DNA of 64,000 nucleotides from NCBI RefSeq assembly GCF_949628265.1, contig NC_088787.1, positions 26,898,501 to 26,962,500 on the forward strand, in the 5' to 3' direction. Positions 4,301 to 49,526 of this stretch are shown one piece after another. How positions within the stretch are numbered: position 1 is the first letter of the stretch; each line of letters opens with the position of its first letter. The position numbers were made by a program, and so were the translations under genes. The notes beneath the pieces are model-generated. The model was given only the letters and a program-made list of their open reading frames with translations, was not told the DNA's origin and ran no database searches. Origin of the DNA: Cloeon dipterum. Taxonomy: Eukaryota; Arthropoda; Insecta; Ephemeroptera; Baetidae.

Positions 4301-5269
4301 TAAGAGATATAAGCTGGCAGCGAAGCGTTCCAGTACATGCGAAGGTCAGGCTCGTTCCACGTTTCCCACCGCCAAAGTTGGACTCTGTCAGACCCGAATT
4401 TGGACTGGTATCGCGATATTGTCTGAAGAACAAGGCTTCGCAGCGGCTGCTGGTCCGTTTGATCGTCAAGTAGAAGCTTGCCGGAAGGATTTCCCATGAG
4501 TTCGAACGAGGGACTCAAATTGTGCTGGTGCAGCAAGGACATGGTTGAGTCTAGCGCGGAAAAGTTAAAAGTTTTCTCCGCCGAGTCACTAAACAGAGAT
4601 GATTTTTTTGTTAATTCAATAATTTATTTGATTCACAATATATGAAGTAAAATATATGATATCTTTGAGCTTTTTGGTAGATTTTTATTTTAAAAGAATG
4701 AAAACTAAAAATATTTTGTTTTGGATGAAACTTAAAATCTGTAGCTAATAATTTACGATTTTTTTAAAGATAGTTGTTAAAAGTAAGAAATCATACTCAC
4801 TGGTTGTAAGTGATGAAATCGAAAAGCCAATGAATACGGACATGTGTCAATGCACCCCCACGCAGTGAGCCGATCAGTGCAAAACCCAAACGCTCATCGC
4901 GAGTAAGATCAAGAGGCCATGTCCAGTTTGTCGAATTCCGAGCCTCGGGGCTGCAAACCACATTGTTATAAATATCAATATGCCACAATTTGTAATTTTA
5001 CTGATTTAAAACTTCTCAAAATATCTCAGAAGATTATTTCGAAAAAAAATCCGCAATGATTAATTTGCTATGAATCGCTATGAATAATAATTTAGCAGTA
5101 AGCATACTGAAAATAAATTTATGCAAGTTCATTTTCGATGACAAAACCTGAAGCCCGTTGATGTCCAAATGTGAGAGAGATATTTTGGTATTTCATTGGA
5201 ATATGGAAAATCAACTTTAATAGCGATGCCAGTAGTTGCAAGACTCAGCACCAAACACAACAAAGTCAT
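1379..5269 (-). CDS. IDUA: Alpha-L-iduronidase (lysosomal glycoside hydrolase family 39)
   Basis: Seven exons in transcript order: 5148-5269, 4801-4950, 4117-4589, 3983-4062, 3609-3908, 2035-2502, 1379-1562. Exon 1 starts at an ATG with a hydrophobic signal peptide (MTLLCLVLSLATTG). The enzyme removes terminal iduronic acid from heparan and dermatan sulfate in the lysosome. Family motifs visible include WTSTGF, VRIHWLFDF, FELMGNPSG, the ETWNEPD acid/base site, the HRKG turn, NDEADP with the nucleophile Glu, and LLSNDNAFL matched by SNDNAFL. The C-terminal fibronectin-like part retains VWSDLEVG and an A-x-D-x-W motif. The joined length is about 591 residues against roughly 650 for the human enzyme. 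Odd point: exons 2 and 3 join in the wrong phase unless one A is removed from the five-A run at 4560-4564, so there is an apparent +1 frameshift. The intron at 2503-3608 is the longest and contains nothing recognisable. Confidence 0.93.
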
Positions 5270-6918: not shown

Positions 6919-7805
6919 ATGAATAATTGGCGAGTTTGGCTCCTTTTCTTCAATGCCCTGCAACTTTCGGAACGCGTAAGATTTTTTTACCTTTTGGCAC
7001 AACACCAATGTACTTTTTTTTAATTTTAGTGTCTTGGCAAGCAACAGTTAAATTACAAGAGTGAACATGACATCAAGTTCATACTTAAAACTGGCCTAAA
7101 CACTTTAAAATTCTTAGGCGAAATGAAGGAACCATATTTTAATGTAAAAAGGTCTTTTTATGATGCTGTGATCCTGATGGGAAATCTAGAGAATGTAAGA
7201 TAAAGTTTTTATTTGACACTTAATTTCAAAACTGAAATTTAAAAATAGGTCGGATATGGTACTGTCGACAAACTGACGGATGAAATAAAAGCCAACATAA
7301 CAAATTTAAATCAACAATTCAACAGATATACATCATTGACAATTCCGAGTATCGTCAATGACTTCAAGTTCAAGATGGGGCAAGTCAACAAATGCCAGGA
7401 AGAAACTAGTCAGAATAGAGCAAAGTCATTAGCAATTGCGTGTGTCAAAAGTATGTGGAGTTCTATAATGCACACCCGAAAAAACCTAACGAGCCATTAT
7501 TCGATTATTTTGAAAAAAGCTGCTCATATATCTTCAATTTTTAAATATCACATATCAACAACTATCCAAAAGGTAAAGTAGATATTATATATTTTTATTG
7601 AAGAGTGTTTTGATATCATTTTCCATGAAAGGATCCCTCTCCTGATGCAGTGGTAGTCCGATTGGTCAATGAGCAATTGGAAGAGTTTGTTGGCTATCAC
7701 GTGGAATTACTCGATCTTTTTCTCACATTAAAGGAGGATTATTATGCATCCCCTACGTTAGAAACTTTTTTGATGCATTTGTTTGTTATACCCTACTATG
7801 TTTAA
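6919..7805 (+). CDS. Small secreted protein of unknown family, 239 aa
   Basis: Four exons, all joined in phase 0: 6919-6975, 7030-7194, 7249-7572 and 7632-7805. Exon 1 is a signal peptide (MNNWRVWLLFFNALQLSER), so the protein is predicted to be secreted. The mature chain begins CLGKQQLNYKSE, is rich in Lys and Asn, looks largely alpha-helical, and has two cysteines in exon 3. Introns are 54-59 bp. An AATAAA lies at 7811-7816, six bases past the stop. I do not recognise the family. The neighbour at 8219-10201 on the opposite strand has the same plan (signal-peptide exon, four coding exons, phase-0 introns, CxxxQ near the mature N-terminus, two Cys in exon 3) and may be a distant paralogue. Expression and function cannot be read from sequence. 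Confidence 0.75.
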
Positions 7806-8218
7806 CCCAAAATAAACTTAAATAGTCTACGTCCAATGCAGTTTCGAGCTGATGATGTGTTTATTTCATAAAGTGGAAAATTGTTTGATAATTATAATGG
7901 TGACAATAATTGATATAAAAGCGCCAAAAATCTTAAATTTTAGCGGGTTGCGCCAGATTTTCACTTTTTCTAAAAATGTTCTGAGGTTCTTTCTGTATAT
8001 TTATTTAAATAAAATAGAGACTATTCAGTGACATCTAATATTACAGGCATGTATATAATACGTTTTATTGTGTGCATGCATTTAATATTTTTTTATTTAT
8101 AGAATTTGAGCAAACGTGGCATGAATATATATACACATACTGAACTGTAGTACAAAAAAGAATATATAAATAAGTATAAATTACTAAAACAAGAAGCTAC
8201 ATTAATTTTTATTAGCAA
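7806..8218. other. Intergenic gap between two convergent small-protein genes
   Basis: About 410 bp of AT-rich sequence containing the plus-strand AATAAA at 7811-7816. No coding signal is seen. Confidence 0.5.
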
Positions 8219-10201
8219 CTAACATCCTTTCGAATTCTTATATCCTACGGGTACATACACTGAGCTATATTCATCAAAATGTTGTTTTGCACATTTATCA
8301 ACCAAGCGTAGAATTTCTCGTGCCTTTGTAGGAACCTTCTCGTACACCTAATTTAAACACAAAATTTATATCTTCATAAAAACAACCTGTTAGTATAGCT
8401 CACCGGTTGGATCAGATTCTCAACGCCGTTCTTCAGGATGCAGTAAACGTTGGCAGCGCTTTTCATCAGTTTTAATCGCTGGTAGTCAGGGAATCGACGA
8501 AACCTCGCAAAATGTAGTACATCAGCTTCGCTCATATCTCTATCAATCCTCAAGCCTTCGCATATTTCGTGCAACATTCTTGAATATACCGGAAGTAAAT
8601 GATATTTAAATATATATTCGGCTTTCCGAACTGCCGCAATCTCTTCAGTTATATTTTTGGAAAATCTTTCCACTTGGCCTTTATCTACCTGTAAATAAAA
8701 GTAAATTTAATTTCCTGGTTTAAATTAGAACCAAAATTTTCTGAACCAAAGCATGCCTTGTAGTTTTAATTTATAAGTGAACGACACATTGAGAACAGAC
8801 TGAAAATAAAATCTAAAGAAGAAACATGCTACAGAACGATTCTCCACCGCTGACTGAGTACTTAGAAAAATTGAGTGAAAGAAACCTTTTGACTTGACAT
8901 CACTTTTTCCTGCAATAATAATTTTAATTTACCTGTGCATCATTGAGAAGCTCAAAGATTTCTTGGTACATTGTATCTTTAAAAGTAATAATTTGATTTC
9001 TTCTGTAAATTTGTATGTCTAGGAAGGTTCTTCTTGTTAAGTTGGATTGCATTTCGCACAATCCACGAGCCTGAGAACAGAAGACGTAAAAACAAGACTG
9101 TTAAAGACATTATAGTATTTAATAAAGTTTGGACATTAATGACCATGGCGTCTTTTACATGCAAAGTCCATGCAAAAATATTTTTGAATAAAATAAATTG
9201 CTCGACTGATTGAACTACTGCAATATTAACTGTTATTCCCACTTCCCACATAAAGTAGATTTTGCCATGAAAAGTAATTCAATTTGAAGATATCACCTTA
9301 ATAATCTAATGTGGAAAATAAATAGATAGTTTTGTGGGATGTTAAACAAACTCGCAAAATGGAATAGATCATGTCTAGAGTTTTTACAATCGATCGCTGC
9401 AAAATTACGATCACCTGGCAAATAGAGCGCGGCTTATTAGTCGTGATGCGTCATTAGAATTTATAATACGTGTCCGCAAAACCGTGCGCCGCCAACTCGC
9501 GATCTGCAAAATCTCGCGCCGCCGCCCCGCGCTCTGCAAAAAATCCGCGCCGTAGCAAAGCTCCCTGCCGCCCCGCGCTCTGCAAAATCGTGCGATGCTG
9601 CTCCACAGTCCGCTAAAACTCGCGCCCTGCCGCCGCGCGTGTCGCCAAATCGTGCGTAGGAAGCCTTCAATAATTTCGTAAAAAATGTCTCCGCGGTGCC
9701 GCGATAGTGACCGTGGTCGGCCCCCGCCCCCAGCCGCCCCCGACCCGCAAAGTTTTCGCCCAGCGCGCATTCTCCTTCAGGGTTGCCATGGAACGATTCG
9801 CATCCGGCGCCCAAACGCTGCACCGCTGCGCAATTCCTCGCTCTCATCAAGCAACAATTGAGGAGAGAATGTTTCGTGATCGTGAAAGTAAAAAGCGTTT
9901 ATAAGTTAATTCTAACGGGCGCATCGCGAAGACCACGGTATGTTTTGTTGGTTTTTCGCTAGCATTTTTGCCTCTTTTCATCTGTATAATACCTGACCTA
10001 TGCATTATGCATATATATTAGAGCCATTTGAAGTAGATGAAAATAAACAAGTAAAAAACAGTGATACCAAAAAGAAAGCCAGTTATATTGTCAATTTAGA
10101 GAGATTGAGAGGGAAAATTGTCTTACCTCGCCGGTTTCACTTTTCACCAGCAGAACGACCATGCTCATGATCAGAAGAGCAAAAATATGCTTGAATTCCA
10201 T
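8219..10201 (-). CDS. Small secreted protein of unknown family, 208 aa
   Basis: Four phase-0 exons in transcript order: 10127-10201, 8933-9070, 8404-8688 and 8219-8347. Exon 1 is almost entirely a signal peptide (MEFKHIFALLIMSMVVLLVK). The mature part begins near ARGLCEMQSNLTRR and continues as a charged, mostly helical chain with several cysteines (HEICEGL, VYCILKNG, DKCAKQH), ending in a C-terminal Cys. I do not recognise the family. It is convergent with the gene at 6919-7805, which shares its exon plan. Intron 1 (9071-10126) is unusually large and contains a GC-rich tandem array. A TTGCAG just before the start codon could be the acceptor of an upstream 5'-UTR intron. Confidence 0.75.
9468..9660. 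repeat. Degenerate GC-rich tandem array in intron 1 of the 8219-10201 gene
   Basis: About five imperfect units of 30-60 bp, each opening with a GCAAAA-like core (CTGCAAAATC) and followed by CGCGCCGCC and CCGCGCTCT-type blocks. GC content is far above the surrounding intron. Related GC-rich sequence without clear periodicity continues to about 9900. Confidence 0.65.
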
Positions 10202-21544: not shown

Positions 21545-24500
21545 TCAAATCGCTGCGCCGTTCGCAACTTCGCTGGTGGCAGTCTTGCTGTAACCTTCGG
21601 AAACTCGGAACTCTTCTTTTCTTCTCCGCAAGAATAAGAAGGCGCCTATCGCAATCGCTGCGACGATCACCGCAAACACAACAAACGCGATTACTCCACC
21701 TACGGACGAGCCCGAATCCGAACCGTCCTGAGATGCTGCAGGGGACACTATCAACTCGCACAGCTCGCCTGGAATGTGGAAAATGGAAGAAATATTAAAA
21801 TTGAGTGGCAATTTTAAAGCAGTGAATCCTATAAGGAGTAAGTTGACGATTTTGGCGCTTACGGGAGAAAATAGCATTTTTGCGCGTTTCCTAGAAAATG
21901 CTTCTTAAAACGCCTGCCTTGTTCGTAAGAGTTATTCGTTGAAGCCGTTGAAGCGGAAAAGTTATAAGGAATGCTAATGATTATGCGAGTAATTTTAAGC
22001 ATTTAACTCAACAAACAAATGAAAAAGGGATTTCTTGTTTGTCACTTTACCTATTCAATCCATCTAATTGTAACAAGCACGTATATGCCTTACGTTTACA
22101 GTTGGTTGAGCGCACGCAAGAAGTGAATCATGAATATTGCATTTGGCGTGTGTGAATTCATTACAAGTGAAGGCTCTGTACTAAGAAGAAGTAGAAGTAA
22201 TTATTGTTTGCCTTATAGCTATAGAGCTGAAAAGTAGTAGCTTGAACGTAAAGAACGAAATAGAGCTCAGGTGTGGAAAGAAATAATTAAAAGGAAAAAT
22301 CCGTAAATCGTAACCGTAATAAAATCACATCAACAGAAAGAAAACTTAAGTGTCACGTCAATTATTTGAGAAAAATTATTAATTTTTCTACACGCTGCAA
22401 ACTGTATTTAGACACTGTCAGGCCTATACTTATATTTGTCCAATAAATATTTTCCTATGGTTATACACAACATTTTTGTGACTTTAAACCAACCAAAGGT
22501 TAATATTTTAGTTAGACTTAATAGTCAATATGAAACAACGCGATAGAATTTCACTCTCGCAATCAATCAATTTAAAACATAATAAATAATTTAAGTTCAT
22601 TCAGAGTAAATTATATTCTATAAAAGGGAGAAACACAAAAATTAAAGAGAGTGCCTAAATTGAAGAAATTCAAATGTGTCGTCAATTTTCATATCCTGCG
22701 CGTTGATTATTGCTAAAAAATTAATTAACTAAAAATTGATTAGAAATATTATTTTTTTTTTCAAAAATCAACTATATAATCAAACCTTTAGGTTTCCAAA
22801 TGTGCATATATCTGTTCTGCAAACTGAACACAATATTCAATATAAAAATCATCTCACCTTCAAATCCATCCTTGCAAATGCAGGAGCCGTCCTCGTTGGA
22901 GCAGGAGGCCTCGTTGGTGCAGTTTAGCAGACACTCATTGGCGCAGTCGACGCCCCACGTGTTGTCTGAGCACAGCTCATTACAGAAGCGGCCCGTCCAG
23001 CCGGCGGGGCAGTTGCAGGCGCCGTCCACGGGGTCACACTCGGCCCCATTCTCACACAGGCACCGCGAGATGCACCCCTCGCCGTACGTGTCGGATGGGC
23101 AGCTCTCGGAGCAGTCGGCGCCGCTCCAGCCCGCCGCACAGGAGCAATTGCCGCTGACGGAGTCGCACTCGGCGCCGTTCTTGCACTCGCACTGCTGCGA
23201 GCAGTTGGCGCCGAACTTGTCCGCCGGACACACCAGGTCGCACTTATGGCCGGTGTAGCCGTGGCTGCAGGAGCAGTGGCCGGTCTGCGGATCGCACTCG
23301 GCGCCGTTGCTGCACTCGCACTCACGCGCGCAGTCGTTGCCCCACCGGCCCTTGGGGCAGTCGGACTCGCACTCGGGGCCGGTCTTGCCCGGCGGGCACA
23401 GACAGCGACCGGTCTGAGGGTCGCACTCGGTCACCGACTGGCACATGCACTTTTGGCTACAGCGCAGACCGAATCGGCCGGCGGGGCACTGGCTCGCGCA
23501 GTCGCTGCCCTCCCAGCCCGGCTGGCAGATGCACTCGCCTGTAAAAGGGGAGGTTCAGATTAATCTCATTTTCAGGAAAGCTATGCATTTGAGGGTGCGG
23601 CACTAATATTTAACACTTACACGGTTCTCAACCACACCCGCTGGATAGAAATTTTAACGCTTTGATTCAAAAATTGTGCTTGAATTATTTATTAGGTTAT
23701 AATTATGGTTATTTTATCTGAATAATAATATATGTTATGTGTGTTAGGATATTTGTATATCTTCATAGAAGTAGGATTTATGTATGAGGAAAACAAATGA
23801 AATCATCCAGGAGAGTGATAAATTGTAAACAGATGATATTGCATGCAACGAGCAATAATGCTTACAATTTGAGAGGGGGACTTGTGCGGCCAAGGCTAAA
23901 ATGTGTATCACGCTCACAATTCAGCTGCATGGTAAATAAGACTCACTAACTTTAGATATTAACTGTGCAGAGTGTTACAGATGATAAAAAAATATAATTG
24001 AATAACTCTTTAAAAAAACTTGATATGCGTAAGCTACCAAATGGCTATAGGCATTTCCTGCCAGCGAAATGTATTCAACTCTGCGTAGTTACGCTAAGGG
24101 CTGCTTCTATTATTAATTTAAGGAACGAAGAAACCCCACTCAGGATTAATCCTCGGTAGAAAGGTGTTTGGGCATGGAATTAGTCAGGATCGTAAGAGGT
24201 ACGAAATTGAATAGTTATATTACGTTTTCTGATTTTTCTCAATTTCTTTCACTCGTTTAATTTTACGCGAGTTCCCAAAAAAATGAGGCAGTAATTTTCC
24301 AGTTTTTAAGCATGAAATTAAAAAAAACACCAAGAGTTCCTTAATTCCAGCATTAAAATCGCCACTGATGTTCAATTGCTTTTTGGAACTTAATTAAATC
24401 ATCGAATGATGTGTAGGCATGCAATCAAAATCAAAATGAAATATATACATATTAGTTAAACATTAATTTAACTAATAATTTCTAAGATTTTTACTGGGCT

Positions 24501-32011: not shown

Positions 32012-34241
32012 CTATTCATCCGCATCGCTATTTGAGTCTTCCAAAAAACAATTGGTTTCATTTGGAGACGACAGTTTATAAGCGAAACTAACAACGGATT
32101 CCGTTGTTGATGACTCATGACCATATTTCGTTTTATAGTATTTGTAACCAAAAATTGCAACTACTATCACTGAGAGTAAACATAGACAAACAACAGTAGC
32201 CACGATAGCCAATATCAGATGAGATGAAGATCCTGAATCGTCCACGTTAAAAGTAACAGTTCCTAGGAAACAAGCATTCCATGAAATACAAACGCAGTTA
32301 GAAAAATCCTCTAATTACCATTGCAGTCATCATTTTCCTTCAGACACGGCTGCTTGCAATCGTCGCCACTCCATCCTTCTTTGCAGAGGCAGTTGCCATC
32401 AACGTTTGAGCAAAATCCCTCGTTGGAGCAATCCAACTGGCATTTGTTAGCACAGTCCACACCCCAGGTGCCATCCGAGCAGGGCTCACTGCAGAATTCT
32501 CCGATGTACCCGGTCGTGCAGTTGCAGGTGCCGTTCACCGGGTCGCAAGTGGCCCCGTTCTCGCACAGACACACCAGTCCGCAGCCCTCGCCGTACAAGC
32601 CCTCGGGGCAGCCCTCCAAGCAGTCGTCGCCCGTCCAACCGGCCGGACAGGAGCACTCGCCGGTGCGGGCGTCGCACTCGCCGCCGTTTTTGCAATCGCA
32701 CTCCTCGCTGCAGTTGGCGCCGAAGCGGCCCTGCGGACACGGCAGCTCGCACTTGGCGCCGACGAACCCGTCCGCGCACACGCACTCGCCGTCCTTTGGG
32801 TCGCACCCGCCGCCGTTCAGACAGCCGCACTCGTGCGCGCAGTCCTGGCCCCAGCGTCCCTGGACGCAGGGCTCCTCGCAGGTGGGCCCGAAAAATCCCG
32901 GCGAACACTTACAGTCGCCACTGGCTGGGTCGCATTTTCCGTTCACGCATAAACACTTCTTCAAGCAGTTTTGGCCAAAGGTTCCGTTCGCACATGGCTC
33001 CGAGCACGAACCTCCTGTCCATCCTGGAAGGCACTGGCAATCACCTGAGAGTATTTTTAAGTTCAAAATAAATCAAACAATCTGTTTGAGTGGCATAATT
33101 TAATTGCATTATAATTTCAAAAATATTTAATGGAGGAAAAACTTAATTTAACCTGTTATAAAATTGCACTCTCCATTTTCACACTCTTTGCACACTCTGC
33201 AGTTTACTCCATATTTCCCAGGTGGGCATTGGACTGTGCAAAAAATCCCCTCGTATCCAGGTTTGCAGAATGATCTCCCGGTAATAGGACCACACTCTCT
33301 ATCGGAACCTATAAATCATAATATATATTTTATCATTTGTTACTTATGAAATGTGATCTCACAAACCAACACTCAATACACACTGTTGCTTGCAATTGTA
33401 ACCAAACGAGCCAGGGGCGCATGGTGTTCGGCAGTTACTAAATTTAACCCCTGCTGAGGCGCATTGCTGTTTGCATCTTGCAACTGAAACGATAACACAA
33501 ATTAACTTGAATTAACACACATCTTTTTATTGAAAACAATATATTTATTTCAATATATTTTCAAGAAATGATTTAAGTTTTTCTTACATTCACGACGGTT
33601 ATAAGAATATAATTCGTTGCAATTGCACATTCCGGTTCTTTTGTCACAGCCAATGAATTGCTTCTGACCGAATAAAATGTAGTATGATGTGCAGTGTGCT
33701 CTGCAGGTATTAGTACAATTCAATCCGTAGAAGCCTGCCGGACACGCTTCGTCACACTTTTCCCCTTGGTATCCAAAGCCACAAGCGCACTTCTCAGTTA
33801 AAACGTCGCAAAATCCATATTGACCACAACCACCAGGACAAATCAATTCTGGAACAGCCCTTTCGCAGAAAATTCCTGTCCAACCTGTTGCAAGGAAAAC
33901 GTATTATAAGTCTGGCGACCTTCATAAACACATGCAAAATGTTTGATATTACCAAAATCCTGGTTTCTTTTTGTTTCTAATTTTTATCGATTTTTTATAC
34001 TATTTTGATACATATATATTTGTTTTATTCATTTGAAAATATTGCTTCCTGTTTGATAAAAAATTGGTAGTTTACCTTTTTTGCACGTGCAAGATCCGTC
34101 ACTTTTAGAGCAATTTCCGTTTACGCAAGGACAAAAAACACTAACGTCAACACGGGAAATTTCTACAGTAGACTCGGTGTTACCGAGCACGGAAAATCGT
34201 AGGGTTGACAACAAAAGGAAAGCTTTCAGAAGCCACATCAT
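32012..34241 (-). CDS. EGF-array transmembrane receptor B, 570 aa
   Basis: Six exons in transcript order: 34076-34241, 33588-33884, 33367-33483, 33153-33308, 32319-33044 and 32012-32262, all introns phase 1. It starts MMWLLKAFLLLSTLRFSVLG (signal peptide), then a short Cys module (CPCVNGNCSKSDGSCTC). A distinctive exon 2 follows (GWTGIFCERAVPELICPGGC...), then exons ending in NCKQQC and GRSFCKPGYEG, then a five-to-six-unit EGF array in the 726-bp exon 5. The last exon has a membrane helix (LILAIVATVVCLCLLSVIVV) and a 45-residue acidic tail with tyrosines but no paired YxxL. It is a paralogue of C (same exon plan, exon 4 exactly 156 bp in both) and is head to head with it. Most of exon 5 is nearly identical to C at DNA level. 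Confidence 0.88.
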
Positions 34242-34818: not shown

Positions 34819-37764
34819 ATGTGGCTGCTAAATGTTGCTCTGTTACTGTGGACACTAGGCGCTCATTCGTTTGCTCAAGAAAAGTATGAGGGAAACGTCT
34901 CAAATAATTTCAGGACTGCTTTAGAAGCCATTTGCCCTTGCGAGCACGGATATTGCGACGAAAGAGACGGCTCCTGCACGTGTGAAAAAGGTATAAAATA
35001 ATAGTTTTTCCTCCCTCGCTCTCTCTGATTTAAATATTCCGCTGAAGAGTTGTCCAATTCATTAATTCTTTATGATCCCATTCATCAAACGTAAAAATTA
35101 AAGCAGTTAGCTTTAAAAAAAAATCATCATCATCTGCTTAAAAACCACGGATGTAACCTTAATGTGTAAAATATTTCTAATGTGCAATTATTTCCTAAGG
35201 ATGGTCTGGATTGCACTGCGAGAGATTTGCTCGAGAAGAGCTTTGTCATGGCGGATGCGGCCCGAACGGCTTCTGCAACATATTATCAGGAAGCTGTGGC
35301 TGTGGAACCGGCTATTATGGGGAAAAGTGCGACATTGAGTGTCCTAGAGGAAGATACGGCATCAATTGTGCTTATGAGTGCAATGATCATTGCACATTTA
35401 ATTTTCATCCTAACAGCCAATACAACAACTTAAATTTTGATGAAACCAGTTTTGGATCTTGTAGCACACATACAGGAAGTTGTATTTGCAGTGGCCTACA
35501 ATACCAGTCTTTGACATTATGTGAGCATCACTTATTTGTGTTTAATAATTTAATTGTTCAATAATGATATTTTAATTGTTCAATGATGATATTTTAATTG
35601 CTAGAAATTTACTCATCAATTCAATTAATGAGTTAGGGCTTTGATTTTTTTATTCAAATTATGCTGAGTTTTTTATATTTGTTATACTTAGAAGATTTTC
35701 AGTCCAATTCATTCCAATTGGAGGCTTAAATTGGGTTTTAGATGCAATTTATTTGTTCACCTTCATAACTTTTCATGATATTTATGTTTTATGAAAAACG
35801 TCATTTTCTTACCAGTTTTGTAGAAGGCTTCATTTTCTTGACTAGAATATTTTACAAGAAGGTATAAATAGGTGTTTTCAAGAGAGATTTGATGTAATCA
35901 GTAACTTTTTTAAGTTTCATTAGAGCACCAAATTATTATTTTGTTGTGTGGTTTGCGTGGTAAAAATGTGTCGAAAAATCCAAGTTTGACGCAACAACTC
36001 GTTGCATTTTTTCAAATACGCGGGGTAGTTATTTATCTTCTCAGCATTCACAAAAATGAGATTTACTCGAGCTTTAATGATGCTTTCTAGAATAATAAAC
36101 TGAATTGGATGATTTCAATGAATCTTCGATTTTCTCTTTGCAGATAGAGCATGTGTTAGAATGTGCGCGTTCGGAAAGACTGGCTTTCGATGTCGGGAAT
36201 TCTGTCCACTTGGCACGTTTGGCTACAATTGTAAACAAAAATGCCTGATAACTGTTGGTAACTATAGTATATCTTGCGGTTAACGTTCGTGGCTAAACTA
36301 TAAAAATTTCAGGTACGAATGGGACGTGTGACCCAACATCAGGAAGATCGATTTGCAAACCTGGATACAGGGGAGTCTTTTGCACTGTGCAGTGTCCAAG
36401 TGGCACATACGGCCCAAATTGCAGGAAAAGGAAGAATTGCAATAATGGCGAGGCAAACTTTATTACAGGTACATAATTGTTTCGAAATATTTATCCGTGG
36501 AAATGCTTAGCATAAATACACAAATGTTATGTCTCGTTCAGAGCTGCCTAAAATTGAATATAATGATTTGTATAATGTTTTGTGAAAGTTTATTTTCTTG
36601 TATGTAACTTTTAAATAAAACATGTTAATTTCAGGTGATTGTCAGTGCCTCCCAGGATGGACAGGAGTTTTGTGCTCGGAGCCGTGTGCGAACGGAACCT
36701 TTGGCCAAAACTGCTTGAAAAAGTGTTTCTGCGTGAACGGAAAATGCGACCCAGCCAGTGGCGACTGCACGTGTTTCCAGGGATTTTCTGGACCAGGCTG
36801 CGAGGAGCCCTGCGCCCAGGGGCGCTGGGGCCAGGACTGCGCGCACGAGTGCGGCTGTCTGAACGGCGGCGGGTGCGACCCAAAGGACGGCGAGTGCGTG
36901 TGCGCGGACGGGTTCGTCGGCGCCAAGTGCGAGCTGCCGTGTCCGCAGGGCCGCTTCGGCGCCAACTGCAGCGAGGAGTGCGATTGCAAAAACGGCGGCG
37001 AGTGCGATGCCCGCACCGGCGAGTGCTCCTGTCCGGCCGGTTGGACGGGCGACGACTGCTTGGAGGGCTGCCCCGAGGGCTTGTACGGCGAGGGCTGCGG
37101 ACTGGTGTGTCTGTGCGAGAACGGGGCCACTTGCGACCCGGTGAACGGCACCTGCAACTGCACGACCGGGTACATCGGAGAATTCTGCAGTGAACCCTGC
37201 TCGGATGGCACCTGGGGTGTGAACTGCGCCAACGAGTGTCAGTCTAACTGCACAAACGGGGGGTTTTGCTCAAACGTCGACGGCAGCTGCCTTTGCCCGG
37301 ATGGATGGATAGGGAGGATATGCGAGAACACTTGTCCCCAGGGGAAATACGGCACCGACTGCAGATTTTTTTGCGAGATCGACTGCCACAGTGGCTTTTG
37401 CAACCACATAAACGGGAGGACGTGTGAATGTGGTAAAAACTATACAGGTGCGTTCACATCTCCACAACCCATAAAACAAATTAAACATATTATTTATTGC
37501 TATATTTCAGGAGACTCTTGCGAAACACCTTTATTGATAAATCAAGTCAACAATCTTCACGTCTTTTTGGTTACGACTGCTGCTACAGTCTTTATCAGCG
37601 CGCTGATATACATCGTAGTGACCTTTTTCAAAAAATATGCACTGCTAAATTTTTCCGTCAAAACTGGAGGATGTGTAGATGAACCTAGTCTTACGTATCA
37701 ATCTCTCAGGGACGATGCAAAGCTTTTAGCACAAGATTCTGAAGATACGAATATATCAACATAA
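34819..37764 (+). CDS. EGF-array transmembrane receptor C, 609 aa
   Basis: Six exons: 34819-34990, 35200-35520, 36144-36257, 36313-36468, 36635-37447 and 37511-37764, all introns phase 1. It starts MWLLNVALLLWTLGAHSFAQ (signal peptide), then CPCEHGYCDERDGSCTC. Exon 2 has GWSGLHCERFAREELCHGGC, exon 3 ends NCKQKC, exon 4 has GRSICKPGYRGVFC, and exon 5 carries the EGF array plus one extra unit compared with B (CENTCPQGKYGTDC). The last exon has a membrane helix (VFLVTTAATVFISALIYIVV) and a 45-residue tail with two YxxL sites, YALL and YQSL, 16 residues apart. An ITAM-like pair is seen in Draper-type engulfment receptors, but here the first Tyr sits very close to the membrane. An AATAAA lies at 37781-37786. 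Exon 5 shares a converted tract with B. Confidence 0.88.
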
Positions 37765-39227: not shown

Positions 39228-41104
39228 TCAAAAGGCGAAGTCATTGTTGAAGCCCTCTTCTTCGTACTTCTGCACGTTGGAAACTGGAGTAACTTTCGGT
39301 TTTGTTCTTTTGAACTTCATCCTGCGGTTCTGGAACCACACTTTGACCTGCATCATGAATATAAACATGGTTTTAGAAAAGTTTTAACGCGCATATTGGA
39401 GCGACAAACCTGTTTTTCTGTCAAATCAAGCGCCACTGCTATTTCGTAGCGTCGCAGCCGGGTCAGGTAATTCGAACGCGCGAATTCAGACTCAAGATCT
39501 CTGATTTGTTGTTTGGTGAACGCTGTGCGCTGGTTGCGTGCCTTGGTTCGTCTGCTGCTCGGCGAATTTGCCACTTCTGAGTCTGGCGAGTCTGCAAAAA
39601 AGAAGACAGGGGATGATAATAAAATTAGATTACACGATGGGAAATAGTAATAGATACGGGATCTTAAGAAATAAGAAAAAAATAACACGAATGAATCATC
39701 AGCAGTTCGCAGAAGGGCACCACTCTCTCTACTAGCGCTTTTTCTCCACTCAGAACATGATTTTCCAATAAATTTGTTGTCAGGGGTGTTTCCTAAGAAA
39801 CACATGTCACGTTGCATTGTTGAAAAAACGCGACAAGCGTGACTCAGTCATGCAACCTCATAAAACTCAAATGATCCACTAATACAAGCCGCGAGATTTA
39901 TGTGTGGTACATGTGTTTGCTGTTTTCTTTCTCACTTCTTGTTTAATTGACAGCCGCTTTTTGCAACTTGTTCAGCGCTGCTATCAAGAAGTGTGAGTGA
40001 CAATCAAAGTTTCATTCTTGAAATCAGAGCAAAGGTTTAATAAGTGCAAATGATACCAATTAATTTCACAATTAATATTGCAATAAGAAACAAAAACGGA
40101 TACAACGACATAATGTAGAATATTTAATTAATATTAAAATATTAAATTTAAAATTGATTTATACTTTTCTGCAAGGTTTTCAATCTTATCAGTCCTGCAG
40201 CTCAAGTATAGCTGAATGACGTACGCAAAAATTCTGAGTGATTTTATGGAATGAAGACTAGATGACTTGCAGAAATTGTTTTAAGTAAGATTAAAGTGGA
40301 AAAATGAATCGGCTAGTATTTAGGGAAACCAAAAATTATTTCTTCCTTATGATATTGCGGCAGACACTTTATTGCAATAGACTAATAGAAAATTGTGTTA
40401 TTAATCTCTGTGCACAATATTTTACTTCTTTGCATTACTGCGGCTGTGCAGTAATAGGAAAATTTACTGTACTAACTAGAGATTTTATTTGTCTCTTCAG
40501 CATACAAAATAAATTTTGTTTCTTGGTGAAATTGTTTAATTTTTGTTTTGTGCTGCATTATAATTTGGTCTTCAAATATCTACACTTAATCCCTGGGAAC
40601 ATGGAGCGTTGTTAAAATCAGTTTAAAGTCATCTGTTTGAATCTGAATGTGAATGGAAAATATTCCCTGTAAAATATGTCTATTTTTAAATTATATTAAA
40701 TAAAAAATCACTGCAAAAAGGGAGAGTAATAATCTTGGCAATGAGCGAGAAAAACAAAAAGATTTTGGGAATAAACAATTAAGCTCTATATTTTTTATAA
40801 ATTCTAAATTTGTTTGGCATTTTAAAAGATAAAAGAAAACAATTTTTCTTAATATTCCATGATAAATATGCATATTAAATATCTTACCCCGGGGAATTGG
40901 TGCTAGATAAGCTGACGTGCACTCTGGCACGAACGGCTGGTTGTGTTGGTCAGTGACGGTCCAGCCTGCGTTAAAGAAGCCGGCGACGGGCGTCTCGCAG
41001 GAGCTGACAGGTAGGTGCCCCCATGAGCAGCCGTCGTACTCGGGGGTTGGCGGGTAGTATAGGTTCTGCGGATCGAACAACATCTCCGAGGCGGCCAAGT
41101 CCAT
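39228..41104 (-). CDS. btn: Meox/buttonless-type homeodomain transcription factor, 172 aa
   Basis: Three exons in transcript order: 40888-41104, 39410-39591 and 39228-39347. The start is the ATG at 41104 ([12 protein letters not shown]). The homeodomain spans about residues 90-149: [13 protein letters not shown], then [20 protein letters not shown], then [17 protein letters not shown], with an intron inside the recognition region between Gln44 and Val45. The [13 protein letters not shown] core is characteristic of Mox/Meox proteins, whose Drosophila member is buttonless, required for dorsal median mesodermal cells. The N-terminal region is Pro/Tyr-rich ([10 protein letters not shown]) and the C-terminal tail after the homeodomain is only about 23 residues, much shorter than vertebrate MEOX1/2. 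Gln50 is present (WFQNRR). It is a nuclear DNA-binding regulator by family. Intron 1 (39592-40887) holds no further exon. Confidence 0.88.
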
Positions 41105-41842
41105 GGTCAAAGTTCAAATGAGCCGCACATGAACCGCAGATGACACTCTGGACCGGCACGAAGAGAGATAAGAAGCCAGCAGTGTCAACAAAGGGCGGGG
41201 CCACCGTTCTCTCCGTGTCACTCGCCAGACTGCAGGCCTTGATGGATGCTGCCAGATTAACAATTGGTCAAGATTTCGAATGTTTTCCTCATTTTATATA
41301 TAACAAGTTCGATGCTTCTTGTTTGTATATCAATAGAGAGTAAATAAGTTTTAAGGCAAGTTGGCAAATAAAAGCAACTTTTTTACTCGAATCATGGGTG
41401 CATTTATATTAATCCAATTTTTTGTTGGTTTTAATTCAAATTACCATACACTCAAAAGTTGAGAATTCAAATTAAAGAAAAACAGCATGACTTTGTTACG
41501 AGTTATTTTTATAATTTGGTACTTCTTGATTCTTGCGATTAATCATATTGATTTATTTAAGACCATTTAAAGAAAGCGAGAACAAATTTATGAGAGCAAA
41601 TATACCATAAAAAGATTGATAATTGCAATTTTAAGTAATCTTGTGCCGAATTTTATTTGAGTTAGACCCATTTATTAATCAATGCAATATCAAATATTTA
41701 AACTATTAGTTATTTTTTTCATCTGCAATGCCGTTTTCAAATTAATTTAATTTGCTTTGGCCATACTCAAGGAAATTGAAACTGGTGCTCGCCTTAAAGA
41801 CTTTAAATGTATAGATTACTCAATTTAGGGGCGCTCGGTAAA
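41105..41842. other. Upstream region of the homeobox gene
   Basis: About 740 bp between the homeobox start codon and the palindrome. 41105-41260 is GC-richer and probably 5' UTR or promoter. The rest is AT-rich with no exon seen. Confidence 0.45.
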
Positions 41843-44052
41843 TATACAGGGAGGGGCATAATTGAACGTTCAAAAAGAACTGAACACCCCGTAGCGTGAG
41901 GTTGGGGTAGGATCAAAATTCCAACGGCGCGTCGTTCAGAAACTGTGAAAGTTTTTTCGGTGAAATTTTCAACCCTCTCGACAGAGCGATTTCATCGCTG
42001 CACCCCAAAATCCAACTTTGAAAAAAGTTTCTTATGGGAATCCCATGTTAAACCACTTTGAAAAAAAGTTTCGAAAATTCAGCGTGCGAAAGTGTTTATA
42101 AGACCAAAATTTTGCGCTGATTCCGATTTTGAGGTCCGTTTATTGTTCCGGAGGCCGGGGGGGTTGTTTTGTTGGGTGGGAAGCTTGGCTCACAGGGGAT
42201 GACGGTCAAAATCAAAGTCTGCAATAAGTGTCGTGCCGCACATGTTTCCGGGGGGAAATTTTCCGCAAAAACCAAATTTGAGATTCAAAATTCGAAATTT
42301 TTAAGATTTTGAAGAAAATTCGGTCAAAATCCGAACATTTTGTTACCCTCCGGGAACCGCATTTCCGAGGCGGTCGAATGTCATACATCTCGACAAAAAA
42401 ACATGAAATTCGGTTTGTGGGCACAAAACAAAGTGCTGAGCAGGAAAAAGTGTGGTTTTTGAAAATCAGACCAAAATTGTTCATTTTCATAAGGGGTCCG
42501 AGTTTGGCCTTGCAGCTCGGCACCTATGGGTCCGAGAGCAAAAATAAGCACAGATTCTGAAAGCTGATGAAATTTGCAATCTTCTTCATGAGGAATAAAA
42601 ATTTCCTCCGCCTTCGAATTTTCCGGAAAATTCAATTCAAAAATCACTAGACTTCTTGGGAAAAGGAAAAATATCGATAAAAATTTTTCAAGATAGCCAA
42701 GATTTAGTACAGGTCTTCATCAACATTTGATGAAAAAATAAAAACATTCGTGCAAGCCGTTTTTGTGCTGCGCGCGATTTCCCAAGTGTCCAACTCAAAA
42801 AACCAAAAAATATCGAAAGTGTCCGAAAATTGTCCAGTTGCACATTTTTGGACTCGTCATGAAGTGCTGATTCCAAAAATGTTTGATTTTTAAAAATTAG
42901 AGCATTTTTGAAAAAGTTATGGATTTTTGAACTTTTTAGGACATTTTGGAAAATTTTAACTTTTTAAAAATAGCGTAACTTTTCGAAAAATGCTCGGATT
43001 TTTAAAAACCAGACATTTTTGAAATCAGCACTTCATGACAAGTCCAAAAATGTGCAGCTCGACAATTTTCGGACACTTTCAATTTTTTTCGGTTTTTCCA
43101 GGTGGACACTTGGGAAGTCGCGCGCAGCACGAAAACGGCTTGCACGAATGTTTTTATTTTTGCACGAGAAGTTAATGAAGATCTCTGCTAAATTTTGGCT
43201 ATCTTGAAAAAATTTTCTCGATATTTTTCCTTTGCCCATACAGTTAAGAGATTTTTTACAGGAATTTTCCGGAAAATCCGAAGGTGGAGGAAATTTTTTT
43301 TCCACATGAAGAAGATTGCAAATTTTATCAGCTTTCAGAATCTGTGCTTATTTTTGCTCTCGGACCCATAGGTGCCGAGCTGCAAGGCCAAACTCGGACC
43401 CCTTATGAAAATGAACAATTTTGGTCTGATTTTCAAAAACCACACTTTTTCCTGCTCAGCACTTTGTTTTGTGCCCACAAACCGAATTTCATGTTTTTTT
43501 GTCGAGATGTATGACATTCGACCGCCTCGGAAATGCGGTTCCCGGAGGGTAACAAAATGTTCGGATTTTGACCGAATTTTCTTCAAAATCTTAAAAATTT
43601 CGAATTTTGAATCTCAAATTTGGTTTTTGCGGAAAATTTCCCCCCGGAAACATGTGCGGCACGACACTTATTGCAGACTTTGATTTTGACCGTCATCCCC
43701 TGTGAGCCAAGCTTCCCACCCAACAAAACAACCCCCCCGGCCTCCGGAACAATAAACGGACCTCAAAATCGGAATCAGCGCAAAATTTTGGTCTTATAAA
43801 CACTTTCGCACGCTGAATTTTCGAAACTTTTTTTCAAAGTGGTTTAACATGGGATTCCCATAAGAAACTTTTTTCAAAGTTGGATTTTGGGGTGCAGCGA
43901 TGAAATCGCTCTGTCGAGAGGGTTGAAAATTTCACCGAAAAAACTTTCACAGTTTCTGAACGACGCGCCGTTGGAATTTTGATCCTACCCCAACCTCACG
44001 CTACGGGGTGTTCAGTTCTTTTTGAACGTTCAATTATGCCCCTCCCTGTATA
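41843..44052. mobile_element. 2.2-kb foldback palindrome (probable non-autonomous DNA transposon)
   Basis: Position x pairs with 85895-x across the whole element. Arms of about 1.08 kb flank a loop of roughly 35-70 bp centred at 42947/42948. The outer ends are TATACAGGGAGGGGCATAAT on both sides, read inward. The outer part of each arm (41843-42565 and 43330-44052) looks identical, so the same 103- and 83-codon frames appear on both arms in mirror positions. The inner part (42566-42900 and 42995-43329) is about 85 percent identical by eye. TA or TATA flanks both tips, compatible with a TA target-site duplication. No transposase is encoded, and the mirror frames look non-coding. If transcribed, the RNA would form a very long hairpin. 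Confidence 0.85.
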
Positions 44053-44083
44053 AATCGCTTTTATAAACACAATAATTGCATAA

Positions 44084-44210
44084 TATGGTCCCTGTGCGGC
44101 CTGGTGCGTCCATGTTATCCGTTCGCGGTGTTATTGGGACCCGAGTTTCAGCATTCGTGCTAGTGCAGTGCGCGCCCTTCCTCAGACAGGGATAAAAAAG
44201 AGCAAAAAAA
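44084..44210 (-). repeat. R1 repeat copy next to the palindrome
   Basis: Reverse complement of the 5570 copy: it contains GGGACCCGAGTTTCAGCATT, GTGCAGTGCGCGCCCTTCC, and CAGGGATAAAAAAGAGC at its end. It begins about 32 bp beyond the right tip of the palindrome. Confidence 0.8.
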
Positions 44211-46185
44211 ATCAGGTTTTGAATGAAATTTTCCTGCTCATACAACCTCAACGGATGCTTTTAAAATTGCCATAGATTCTATTTCTCCTCAAAAAAGCCC
44301 TCTCTGAGTAATTAAACACCAGTTGTTAGGAATCCGTGCAGATGTGTGACAAAGACTGATGACTCTGGTCTGCTTGTTTTCTCAGCCTCAAAAACGCGAG
44401 CCTGTGTATTTTTGTTTGTGAAGGTGTGTTCGCGACAACCACTTCCGCACCCTGCACACCAGACTGCGTGGCGACGCTGTCCCACTCCATCTCCCTATTT
44501 CTGTGCAGCTATATAGCGAGTAAATCTTGAATAAGCCAGAGAGACAGCTATAAAGCTTTTTAATTTTAATGTGTAATTATGTTAAATGGGAAAAATGAGA
44601 ACGTATTGCGAGAAATTCACACGGCACTAAGCTGTTAACGGTTTTCTATCAGATGAGTCAAAACTCAAGATTTTCATGATTATTCGCTTGAGCGTTAGTG
44701 ATTTCAATTTTCATTCAATTTAAATATAACATAGTCACGTCTCATGTAGAAAAATAACATTATTTATACCGTCTCATGGCTTATTCAGTGATTTATATCA
44801 TGACTTTTATTAGGATTTAAAAGTAAAATAAAAATTTTCTGGTCAAATAAGACCCCCAAAAATACACAGGAATAAAAAAACCATTAAAAAAGAAAAACAA
44901 AACTGGAATAATATATATATTATTTAAGATTAAGCAAATGGAATATACTTTATTACCTGTAAATTTATTTTAATTTTTTAATTTTTATATTCTCTCCTGT
45001 ATTGTTTTAAAAACGCAAACCACTAATGCAGCACAGTAAACAATCATCATAATTAATGATGGCATGACTTTTGAAAGAGGACCTCATGAACGAAGGCACT
45101 CTGCTATATTAGACATGCTATATGAAGTCTCCCACGAACCTAGTTTCGCTCAATGAATTCTGTGCCTGCTGCCTGTTATGCCGTATCAAATTTCATATAT
45201 TTGCGTCGCTCGTAATTTACTTCTTGCACAGGAAAATATCGCTTTTCAGGAAGCAATATGAAATAGAGTGTGGATGTTTTGAGATCAATTTCATTTTTGG
45301 ACTGTAGCCCAGCCACCCGCAACCCAAGAGACGCTAATATTATGCTCAGTGAGCGTAATGCTTCCTTGCAAGTAGAATAAAATACACTCAAAAAGACTTC
45401 AGTAGATAATCTTGAACGAAGAAGAGTGTTCACTTTTTTTAAAGTTTGCTATTTCTCTCTGTAATTTTAATTTAGTCATTACATTTTTGTGAACAAATTT
45501 TTTCAAATCGAAAAATATTGATATCTTGCCTATTTTATGATAGTAGTTCATTATTCATGCTATCATTATCATGCGCAATAATGTGAAAAATTAGGGAGAG
45601 AAAAAAATTACAAAAAATAGGGATACATAATTCACAAAATTGATAGGCACACACATTGTGCGGTTGTAATTTGTCCTTTCACTACAGTATTAATTAATTA
45701 ATTAATGCATATATTCGTGAAGAATTAGACGGTTTATCATCAATGTAAAAAACATCAAAGTTTTGATTTGGAATTCGTTTCAGTGTTTTGCGCCAGCTTT
45801 GCGTGTGAAGAAAGGCTAATCAATCTGTACCTCGATTGTTTTGCTTCAAACAAACGTCGACAAAGCAAGAAAAACAAGAGAAGCGTGCTGCATCTACCCG
45901 GGGACAAGCACGCGATGACTCATTTACTGGTGATGAGGATACCAGAACAAGCGACTCACCCGCGCAATGTGACAATAATATCTTTGCCCACGCGCGGCGA
46001 TATACTGCGCTATCACTGAGCCACTTAAAAAAATAAAGAGACAGCCGCACCAGTGCAGAAGGTATAGCTACTGCCAAGATCACTATAACTTTCTGTCCCT
46101 ATTAAAACAATGCAAAGAAGGATTACTATATTAAAATTTAAGCTACGAAAATGAAGTCCGTTTAAATTATAATATGGAACAACCC

Positions 46186-46480
46186 ATTGGCTCGCATTGT
46201 TAAGGCATTCTCAGGAGTGTCAAGGCAATGGGAGATATTTGATCATTTCTGGGATCTGTTACTGGCTACCTATAATGTCAGAGATGGCGAAAGATGGTTA
46301 GTTTAGTGGCTCTAAATGCTCAAATAGCTCAAGGGGCCGGCAGGCGCACTGGTGCTGACTCGACACTAGCTGGCGTGTCATATGAAGACCGCGGTGCGGG
46401 GTGGCAAAAAGATTGCCTTTATTGAGTGGCTTTAAGTGAGCCCATAGCCACGGGATATGCTGAGCAGAGGTTAGATATAA
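46186..46480 (-). repeat. R1 repeat copy, 3' half
   Basis: Minus-strand match to the second half of the 5570 copy: CCCATTGGCTCGCATTGTTA, AGGCATTCTCAGGAGTGTCA, AGGCAATGGGAG, and TCAGAGATGGC. It extends past the 5570 copy into sequence shared with 14518-15030. Confidence 0.75.
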
Positions 46481-46837
46481 ATAAAAAAATAAAATAAACT
46501 CGGTATAGTCGACATTTAACTTAAGTTTGTAATACATTGGCTTGTTTCTTTAGGAAGATGAGTTGATCAGCATAAATTCATTTTATTTAAAATAAAATTT
46601 GATCATCAAATGGACATGTAAAAGAAATAATTAAATCCTGATTCACTTTTGATAGACGCATTTATTGATTATGAAACGAACAACCGAAATACAAATAATT
46701 ATTCTATTAAAAATAAATGGCTTCACTACTGAACTAATTTTAGCAGTTTTTGTTTATACAATTGAGAAAAAATCTATAAGGCTTATCAGTGTATCTTGAT
46801 AGGGGCTCGATATTTGACGTTTACAATAACGCATTTT

Positions 46838-49477
46838 TTACTGGGAGAAAATTTTGAAGTTCATTCCCGAAAAAATTTGCATCGCAGTTTTCACTGTGCT
46901 CCTAGCGTATTCAACGTAATTTTTCAACTCTTCCTCGTCCTCAGAGCCAACAGAGTTCAATCGAAACAACGCGGATTTGTTTAGTTTCGCTTCTAAACCT
47001 TGCCAGTCAACCAGCTTTGTGCTTGGGGATGGAATGCTCTGGAAATACGCAGCCAAACCGTCGGCGGCGTCCGGCTCTGTTTCGCAAAATTCTTTTTTCT
47101 GCAGCATGCATCTGCATTCGTTTTTAGTGTCGCTCTCAACGAAGAACACTGCCGCCAATCTGAGCATTTCGCATTCCCTCGTCTTGCACTTTCCTGAGTA
47201 TATGTTCTTGGCACAGGTGCTTTTGCCCTCGCCCCCCTTTCCTCCCTTTCCATGTCGGCCAGAAAGTCCATCCGCAGCCTGGACACGCAGTTGATGGTCG
47301 TCTTTCCACACAAGGAAGAAATTGTGTCCCGCTTTGCCACCCTTTCCTCCGGCACCCCCGTGCCCTCCGTTGGTTGGCGGCCGGGCGCCCTGCTTGTTGA
47401 CCAACACAAGCGTCCCCTTGTCAGGGTGCTCGATCGAGTAGCCGTGACTCTTGATTGGTCCCCAATTTGCAACGCCACTCACGAACTCAGGGTAGAAATC
47501 GGTGAAGTGCGGCGAGGGGCTGCTCACCCCTTCCAGCCCTCTGGCACCGTCTTGACCGTCGCCGCCGTTTCCGCCCTTGCTGGCGATGGTGAGCTGCGCC
47601 CCCCGTTTCACTTCAAGAGCCAAAATCAGGGTGTGACCCGCGTTGTGGCCGTCCTCGCCGGGTGAACCATCCTTGGGGGAAGAGCTTAGCCTGGGAGAGG
47701 CGCTTTTTCCGTTCCTACCGCTCATGTTGAAAGTCAAATTACCGCCTATAACCTCGATGGTCGGTGCAGCCAAGGACACATTGGCGTCGACAAGAACTAG
47801 GTCGCAGTCAATGAAAATTGTGCCCTGTGCAAAAAGGTAAAGGTTTTGCAGTTTTTGAAATTTTCCCAGCTCTGGAGCGATTTCAGATAAGATCAAATTT
47901 CTCCCTTCGTAGATCAATTCCTGTCCGAAATTGTTAAAGGACCGGCGGGTGGTGTGGTTCAAATTTCGGTTTAAAATTGAGTTCAGATCTTGGATCATTT
48001 GACGGGTAGGCTTCAAGCTAATGAGTTTGTCTTTGTTAGCGACTTTGATTTTGAATTTTGACAGGTTAAAAATGAAATCTTTGTAGTTGTCGGCGGATAC
48101 TTCAAGAAACGCCGATTTCCGCAATATTTGCACTTCATATGATTTCAGCTCCACTGTCAGCCTCTGTAAAAATGTGTAAAAGTCATCCATTCCTTTGATA
48201 ATTTGCGATTTATCGATCACGGTCTGCTCCACTTGGTCAAGGAAATTAGAAATATCTGCACTCGCTAAATCGTAAGCGAGTTGAGTTGATTTAATCAAGT
48301 TTTGCATGATGGACAAGTCGATGTTTCGCCATGCGTCGCATACGGTCGTCAGTTTTTCTTTCAAGCTCAATAATGCGTCAAGGGAATCAAAAATTCCACC
48401 AGTCAGAATCAACTCTTGAAAATTCAACGATGCCTTTGATATAAATGACGCTTTCTCATTAATCTTGTGATTAATTTTCATAGCGCTTTCAATGCAGACC
48501 TGAAACTCGTTTAATATCTTTGCTAAAAACCGCGTTGCCAATTTGTTATTTTTCGGAATAATATTCTGCATTATGTAATCACGACTTCTGTGAAGAATGG
48601 AAAATGGAAACTGAACGCCGTCTGTTGGGCAAAAATCAAGACTGCCGAAAAAGAGAACGCGCAGCTCTTGCTGGCATTTTGACATCATTTCCGACGCCCA
48701 GGGCGAGGTTTCCTGGTCAGGGTTGCGGAAGAGAGCGATATTTTCCGCTGTGCCGTTCGCATAAATCGAACCTAAGACTTCCAGCATGTCAAAAGTCTCG
48801 TTATACTCCCCTGAATATTTATCTTGTTCTGTCAAATCGAAATCCAGTTCGTCTTTCACGGCTAGCAATTGATTTAGGACGCTGCTCAAAATTTCTGAAT
48901 CATCTCCCTGCTGGTCATGCACCTTTGCCACCACAAGCCCAACAGAGTTTTTGAAAACTTCGATTCTGGGCAGTTGCTTGGCGGCGTGCCTCAACAGTTT
49001 CAACACTGGGGCCGTGTCCGCACCATCCATAAGGTTCGCGTGATTCTCCACAAAAATTAATTTCAAACTCTCGGCGTGCTGCAAAGCGCTCTTTGTAAAA
49101 TACGCTCCCGCGATGTCCAACTTTGGCTCTCGGGATTCGGTGAAGCCAGGAACATCTACCAAAACGTTTCCGGTGGCTTTGTCCTGGTAGAAATGTGGTA
49201 GGACATCTTGAAATTGCGTCCGATTTTGGCTTCTCTTACTTTCAAACACGAGTTTGCTGCCCTTCCGTCGCACCTTTAGCGTCTCGTCCTTTATCACGAA
49301 TTTTGTCAGAGTCGATTTGTCGACACCGCTCGATCCAAAGAGAAATATAAGGTCTTTTTCGGGCACTCTTAGAAGCTCCCCGTAGTTCAAAAGCTCGTGC
49401 ACCTCTTCAAAAGGCGAATTTTGTTTCGCAAAAGAAATGCTGCAGATCACAGATATCACTAGGAGAAGACGCTTCAT
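46838..49477 (-). CDS. Secreted P-loop GTPase-like protein with glycine-rich region, 879 aa
   Basis: A single uninterrupted coding exon. The start is ATG at 49477 (MKRLLLVISVICSISFA, a signal peptide); a longer upstream frame exists, but a 49-bp intron ends exactly at this ATG. Residues 43-60 (LIFLFGSSGVDKSTLTKF) resemble a Walker A/G1 loop, but the last Gly of GxxxxGK is Asp. Residues 106-112 (LVDVPGF) fit G3 (DxxG), and LVVAKVHDQ near 181-189 sits where a G4 motif would be, though not canonical. A long helical region of about 300 residues follows. A strand-rich segment (IFIDCDLVLVDANVSL) comes next, then glycine clusters at roughly 634-650, 702-717 and 737-752. A Cys-rich stretch near 754-798 precedes an acidic C-terminal part. 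The combination of an export signal with a GTPase-like fold is odd. I recall uncharacterised arthropod proteins of similar design but cannot verify a family name. Ligand and nucleotide binding are unknown. Confidence 0.85.
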   Translation of the reverse strand: MKRLLLVISVICSISFAKQNSPFEEVHELLNYGELLRVPEKDLIFLFGSSGVDKSTLTKFVIKDETLKVRRKGSKLVFESKRSQNRTQFQDVLPHFYQDKATGNVLVDVPGFTESREPKLDIAGAYFTKSALQHAESLKLIFVENHANLMDGADTAPVLKLLRHAAKQLPRIEVFKNSVGLVVAKVHDQQGDDSEILSSVLNQLLAVKDELDFDLTEQDKYSGEYNETFDMLEVLGSIYANGTAENIALFRNPDQETSPWASEMMSKCQQELRVLFFGSLDFCPTDGVQFPFSILHRSRDYIMQNIIPKNNKLATRFLAKILNEFQVCIESAMKINHKINEKASFISKASLNFQELILTGGIFDSLDALLSLKEKLTTVCDAWRNIDLSIMQNLIKSTQLAYDLASADISNFLDQVEQTVIDKSQIIKGMDDFYTFLQRLTVELKSYEVQILRKSAFLEVSADNYKDFIFNLSKFKIKVANKDKLISLKPTRQMIQDLNSILNRNLNHTTRRSFNNFGQELIYEGRNLILSEIAPELGKFQKLQNLYLFAQGTIFIDCDLVLVDANVSLAAPTIEVIGGNLTFNMSGRNGKSASPRLSSSPKDGSPGEDGHNAGHTLILALEVKRGAQLTIASKGGNGGDGQDGARGLEGVSSPSPHFTDFYPEFVSGVANWGPIKSHGYSIEHPDKGTLVLVNKQGARPPTNGGHGGAGGKGGKAGHNFFLVWKDDHQLRVQAADGLSGRHGKGGKGGEGKSTCAKNIYSGKCKTRECEMLRLAAVFFVESDTKNECRCMLQKKEFCETEPDAADGLAAYFQSIPSPSTKLVDWQGLEAKLNKSALFRLNSVGSEDEEELKNYVEYARSTVKTAMQIFSGMNFKIFSQ

Positions 49478-49526
49478 CTGAAAAAGTGTCTTATAAGATG
49501 TCTGAAATATTGTCTGCATTAATTAC
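49478..49526 (-). other. 49-bp 5'-UTR intron abutting the start codon
   Basis: Minus strand: ACAAAG|GTAATTAAT at the donor and CTTTTTCAG|ATGAAGCG at the acceptor. Splicing would remove the upstream in-frame ATG and place the signal-peptide ATG directly after the junction. Confidence 0.6.

Follow-up and report, generated by a model that had tools for sequence, protein, structure and literature searches.

The palindrome at 41843-44052 of the window (the whole 64,000-nucleotide stretch of Cloeon dipterum DNA analysed here) is a non-autonomous, TA-flanked DNA transposon with terminal inverted repeats (TIRs) and the tip CAGGGAGGGGCATAATTGAACG. This small jumping-gene remnant, whose outer halves became identical recently while its older core did not, is a good illustration of a type of element that is already known. 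Comparison with its relatives at diagnostic sites indicates that the abrupt identity step within its arms is a mosaic junction of two source sequences. We propose, with a probability of roughly 60%, that the window element arose from a 4.4-kb parent by internal deletion through a repeated palindrome.

Direct pairing of window positions confirmed the geometry that the initial annotation had described, in which x pairs with 85895-x without any indel over more than 1 kb per arm. The repeat finder returned gap-free arms of 1,089 nt each that are 95% complementary, and the palindrome is the longest of six inverted repeats of at least 80 nt in the window. All 726 pairs of the outer arms (41843-42568 against 43327-44052) are identical, in agreement with the ~720 bp first estimated, and the inner part (42569-42947) contains 61 mismatched pairs in total. 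The first 363 inner pairs account for 51 of these (14%, close to the ~15% previously given), and 10 of the last 16 pairs at the palindrome centre are mismatched. The step is indeed abrupt, and its earlier placement near 42565/43330 is corrected here to 42568/42569 and 43326/43327. If mismatches were placed at random, the chance that none of the 61 would fall in the first 726 of 1,105 pairs is about 10^-30. Beyond the element, 73 of 100 pairs are mismatched in the 100 bp outside each end.

The element proper is bounded by TA target-site duplications at 41845..41846 and 44049..44050. The left terminal tip, CAGGGAGGGGCATAATTGAACGTT, lies at 41847..41870 on the plus strand, and the tip pattern search places the right one at 44025..44048 on the minus strand. 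This 24-base tip occurs exactly 12 times in the host genome, among 18 matches with at most three mismatches. The tip pattern was matched at both ends in five elements (the window element, L031, L032, L033, and L034). All five have CAGGGAGGGGCATAATTGAACG at either end and TA beyond it on both sides, and their flanks are otherwise unlike one another. The older relative L064 has TA at both ends as well. The tips as first annotated require slight trimming: the shared tip is CAGGGAGG, at 41847 and 44048, and it is preceded by TATA, from which the other copies share just the TA. TIRs with a target-site duplication at the exact ends, by which a TIR transposon is recognised, are thus found in several copies. 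No empty site appeared in the host genome, where a query joining the two flanks at one TA matched only the window halves and copies of a repeat in the right flank. No open reading frame of at least 150 aa overlaps the window element, stop-to-stop frames inside L031 and L034, the relatives scanned for frames, reach 141 aa at most, and four frames of these two gave no Pfam match. Given the TA flanks, the shared tips, and the lack of a coding frame, the element is therefore assigned to the non-autonomous TIR DNA transposons of the TA-targeting kind.

Related copies with the same tips had been anticipated elsewhere in the genome, and they are present, other contigs included. The left arm gives at least 49 matches at no fewer than 25 places in the host genome (190 Mb, 10 contigs); places were formed by joining rows within 6 kb and 40 of 104 candidates were scored, making the counts lower bounds. 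The nearest relatives are four elements of ~4.4 kb, L031 (contig C5), L032 (C1), L033 (C9), and L034 (C4). These are inverted repeats with arms of ~1.6 kb whose identity, gaps counted, is 96.1%, 99.1%, 99.6%, and 99.7%, respectively, and each arm holds a smaller palindrome of 1.0-1.6 kb with halves (PL and PR) that are 84.8-87.5% identical. Their common layout can be written A.PR.PL.spacer.a.PL.PR.A', where A is the outer 600 bp, PL and PR are the halves of the old palindrome, and 'a' is a diverged older neighbour of PL that occurs on one side only, the side depending on orientation. All four have a long unit in which PL runs outward into this diverged 'a'.

Several further observations concern the wider family. 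On the small contig C9, a partial left arm (988-2031) with the same 30-bp left flank precedes the full 4.4-kb L033 element (3821-8250), reflecting either a local duplication or an assembly problem. Among other tip carriers, L053 has only about the first 63 bp in common with the window element, and L063, L064, L065, L067, and L068 share pieces with it that are mostly 71-84% identical; L066 gave no match and is probably a chance hit. L035 (C5:5894670-5900702), with copies L036 and L037 on C3 and C1, is a 6.0-kb non-coding TA-flanked element with the left end TATGGGGGACTCACAC. Three copies are 99.85-99.92% identical over 3.9 kb, with the right end compared in two of them, and the element contains two palindromes, one of them an old relative of that in the window. 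A sister family comprising L039 (C2:8190622-8195023), L027 (C2:34881187), and L024 (C3:33147087) has the tips TACAGGGTGTACAAGAAATGAACG, with 11 exact tips, and has the inner palindrome in common with the window family. The first 526 of 881 bp queried from the L034 spacer match the end region of this sister family, at 86-91% in the better copies.

The PL and PR copies of the four 4.4-kb relatives were used to trace the origin of each part of the window element. A site was considered diagnostic when it is uniform among the PL copies of the four, uniform among their PR copies, and different between PL and PR, with the PL reference below position 601 being the four long units only. Element positions 319-640 hold 27 diagnostic sites, and both window arms are PR-type at every one. 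A further 21 sites lie at positions 727-1105, where the left arm is PL-type throughout and the right arm PR-type throughout. Positions 641-726 contain no diagnostic site. The left outer arm (41847..42568, plus strand) thus consists of the outer 600 bp and a PR-type stretch, has no mismatch to the right outer arm (43327..44048, minus strand), and adjoins the inner left half PL (42569..42947, plus) and inner right half PR (42948..43326, minus) of the old palindrome. Because the left arm is PR-type outside and PL-type inside, the step is, on these sites, a mosaic junction. The junction interval can be set at 42453..42568 on the plus strand, as the last strict PR-type site is element position 610 and the first difference between left and right is position 727; this interval is largely identical between PL and PR.

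Extraction from 15 of 20 loci, using only alignments that span the centre, gave 16 palindrome copies at 10 loci; L040, L042, L044, L046, and L048 yielded no palindrome copy. In the trees, sequences with less than 60% of columns were dropped. In the tree of positions 727-1085, the left half of the window palindrome groups with both L031 PL copies (support 100), and the right half is joined, also at 100, by the PR copy in the right unit of L031. In the tree of positions 301-640, the window left arm groups with its own right arm and the L031 right arm (90), within the A'/PR clade (92) and apart from the 'a' clade (99). Across the window element and the four 4.4-kb elements, PL and PR fall into separate clades, so the inner divergence is old, inherited, and common to the five elements. 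In the midpoint-rooted inner tree, PL joins the sister family (97) and PR joins L035 (83), and the two are not each other's nearest kin. Since PL leads into diverged 'a' in the long units of all four relatives, the position of A beside PL in the window is a derived junction. The older L035 differs in that its inner halves group together (support 100) at ~92% identity, so inner homogenisation or renewed palindrome formation has happened in its lineage.

Outside the inner palindrome, arms tend to match within an element. Across the outer 600 bp, no site separates the two arms of the window element or of L032, and two sites do so in each of L033 and L034, against 11-17 differences per 600 bp between the lineages W (the window element), L032, and L033/34. 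L033 and L034 were counted as one lineage because they differ from each other by only 1-3 per 600 bp, no more than between their own arms. In L032-L034, homogeneity extends through 1,606 bp with 0 or 1 difference per 100 bp. Near-identical arms within elements, set against the differences between lineages, argue that the ends were matched after the lineages split. Long TIRs that make up most of the element and are homogeneous within the copy are therefore seen in the window element and three of its four relatives. The exception is L031, whose own arms differ at 12 of 600 sites; its right arm is window-like (2 differences per 600 bp to the window right arm), and its left arm is nearest to L032 (8 differences per 600 bp), a link with a tree support of only 53. 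From its sequence, L031 looks like the product of an exchange between lineages.

The internal deletion that we favour would have begun with a parent of the layout A.PR.PL.spacer.a.PL.PR.A' and near-identical outer arms, as found in three of the four closest relatives. PL and PR are homologous, so the left PR and the right PL of such a parent form direct repeats that are ~86% alike. If these repeats exchanged, or if strands annealed prematurely between them, perhaps during repair of the gap left by excision, the middle would be deleted, leaving A.PR(short).PL.PR.A', which is the layout of the window element. The step would then mark the crossover and not a decay boundary, and as far as the crossover the left arm would match the right, the arms of the parent having already been alike. 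The 4.4-kb layout shared by all four nearest relatives speaks for this deletion. Against it, W-type sequence was not seen in both arms of any 4.4-kb copy, L031 having it in the right arm only, and no transposase partner was found among the matches listed. Moreover, position 712 is A in both window arms and all PL copies and G or T in the PR copies of the four relatives, a state that a simple crossover does not predict, although this is one site. A is also present at 712 in the more distant PR copies L039, L047, and L035; it is possible that it represents the older state or a point mutation, and the hint of mismatch repair is accordingly weak.

The main rival is TIR-to-TIR gene conversion in a 2.2-kb element, without a 4.4-kb intermediate, whereby the right end was copied over the left for ~720 bp from the tip. 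The product expected from conversion is almost that expected from deletion. Homogeneous arms within elements of three lineages that differ by 11-17 per 600 bp do imply some end-homogenising process, and A at 712 in both arms would suit patchy repair, ambiguous as that single site is. Conversion, however, needs a 2.2-kb parent in which PL is flanked by old 'a', and no young complete one is present among the loci read, while the 4.4-kb layout already yields the product by one deletion. We therefore regard conversion as possible and rather unlikely. The initial annotation saw a mobile element of foldback type whose outer arms became identical recently, which the same-tip copies bear out, and attributed the identity to homogenisation, by hairpin-mediated conversion or repeated end-to-end repair. 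In favour of homogenisation through a hairpin or cruciform, the inner 758 nt do fold strongly as RNA (-456 kcal/mol, against -163 to -204 for three window stretches of the same length), and the renewed inner halves of L035 would fit such a process. Once transcribed, such a hairpin might serve as the siRNA precursor that the initial annotation proposed. However, the tightest hairpin, the inner palindrome with its arms nearly touching, has remained at 85-87.5% in the window element (86%) and the four 4.4-kb relatives, whereas arms lying 0.76 kb apart in the window element, or ~1.2 kb apart in L032-L034, are near-identical. With the inner palindrome still diverged in all five elements, and PL and PR inherited, hairpin-mediated conversion is disfavoured here and we judge it improbable, although L035 leaves it conceivable for the wider family.

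Inverted artefacts of long-read sequencing yield identical arms, and an assembly or library foldback artefact could in that respect mimic the outer palindrome. Such an origin is very hard to reconcile with a diverged centre between identical ends, two different flanks, TA at the exact tips, and related copies on other contigs, and we give it hardly any credence. The preferred internal deletion illustrates, through the diagnostic sites, that a single exchange between nested repeats can produce an identity step in a palindrome, with no need to invoke hairpin conversion along the whole arm. The small family also allows the products of exchange to be compared: the window element, the mixed-arm L031, the homogenised L032 and L033/34, and the older L035. 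A more speculative and rather doubtful extension is a palindrome ratchet, in which inner palindromes would serve as recombination handles while the ends are repeatedly recopied outside an unconverted core. If so, a single element would hold dated strata, with an old core at 86% and new arms at 100%, matched and transposase-competent ends would be gained at each turn, and L035, with its inner halves renewed at ~92%, would represent an earlier turn.

The window element would have been inserted at TA and moved in trans by some transposase, and its mobiliser may be a transposase-bearing element ending in CAGGGAGGGG or CAGGGTGTACAAG. Transposase-family profiles, tip searches, and the spacer of the 4.4-kb element revealed no autonomous partner. 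Profile matches in the host genome number at least 49 for PF13358 and at least two for PF03184. When distances were measured to 44 tips, 14 sister-family tips, and 20 relatives, the nearest match listed for either lay 16 kb away. The autonomous partner with the same tips, for which the initial annotation suggested a search, is thus absent among the listed matches. PF01359 had no match in the host genome and, like PF03184, none in any control genome. One locus matched by PF13358, L073, contains at 676-2559 on the minus strand a 628-aa retroelement frame with RNase H and integrase zinc-binding and core domains, so the PF13358 list mixes retroelement integrases with transposases. Two Tc1-like elements (L071 234-1542 and L072 270-1578) are 98.8% identical and have open transposase-like frames of 343-344 aa. 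Their TIRs of ~29 bp are unlike the long TIRs of the window family; flank plus tip starts with TACAG, and the tips, which read TACAGTATGACC, do not match the window tip beyond TACAG.

A TA target duplication is a trait of the Tc1/mariner superfamily, and it is found in the window family. In Caenorhabditis elegans, palindromic TA-flanked elements and the foldback elements Tc4 and Tc6 are long non-coding palindromes, some of which target TA-type sites, and the window element resembles them, by description only, in being a non-coding long palindrome with TA flanks. The host genome gives no support for a nematode: SL1 with up to one mismatch, the Rfam SL1 model (50 of 61,889 candidates scored), and TTR-52 each had 0 matches, in searches run with no positive control. 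EGF and homeodomain exons point to an animal. Galileo, a P-superfamily element of Drosophila, has 98-100% identity between the TIRs of one copy, non-autonomous copies of long TIRs with internal sequence recruited into the TIRs, and chimeric copies with ends from two subfamilies, for which the authors discuss gap repair, template switching, and ectopic exchange (PMC3573991; PMC4168063). The window family closely resembles Galileo in its long TIRs matched within the copy, and L031 is comparable to the chimeras. Galileo has target-site duplications of 7-8 bp and a P-type transposase, and its chimeras lack matching duplications (PMC3573991; PMC4168063). On these points the window family differs, as its duplication is TA and no transposase partner was found among the listed matches, and L031 has TA on both sides, although 2 bp cannot decide. 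Tm1, a Mutator/Foldback element of root-knot nematodes, is similar in its foldback-like long TIRs and non-autonomous copies; its duplication is mostly 9 bp, and only 5 of 61 elements are reported to have identical TIRs, with a mean of 93.15% (PMC3169594). Only TA is common to the flanks across our five elements, and with neither the 7-8 bp duplication of Foldback and Galileo nor the ~9 bp of Tm1, the window family is placed in neither group.

Other features of the window were noted in passing. Over 42829-43066 on the minus strand, the palindrome core scores 50.6 bits against the MIR2606 microRNA precursor model, below its gathering threshold of 139.7; the hairpin form of the core is probably the only reason for this match. 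Beside the palindrome, a repeat of ~95 bp lies at 44087-44181 and again at 5604-5698; it had no match in an Rfam search of 40000-47000 (E up to 0.1), and an 83-bp part of it has at least 38 other copies at 98-99%. An 893-aa frame at 46841-49519 on the minus strand gave only sub-cutoff matches of the P-loop type. The minus strand also carries a homeodomain exon at 39356-39817 and a glycosyl hydrolase 39 exon at 4063-4539. Finally, multi-EGF exons occur as an inverted duplicate (93%) at 32370-33053 and 36626-37309, with a more diverged copy (71%) at 22864-23380.
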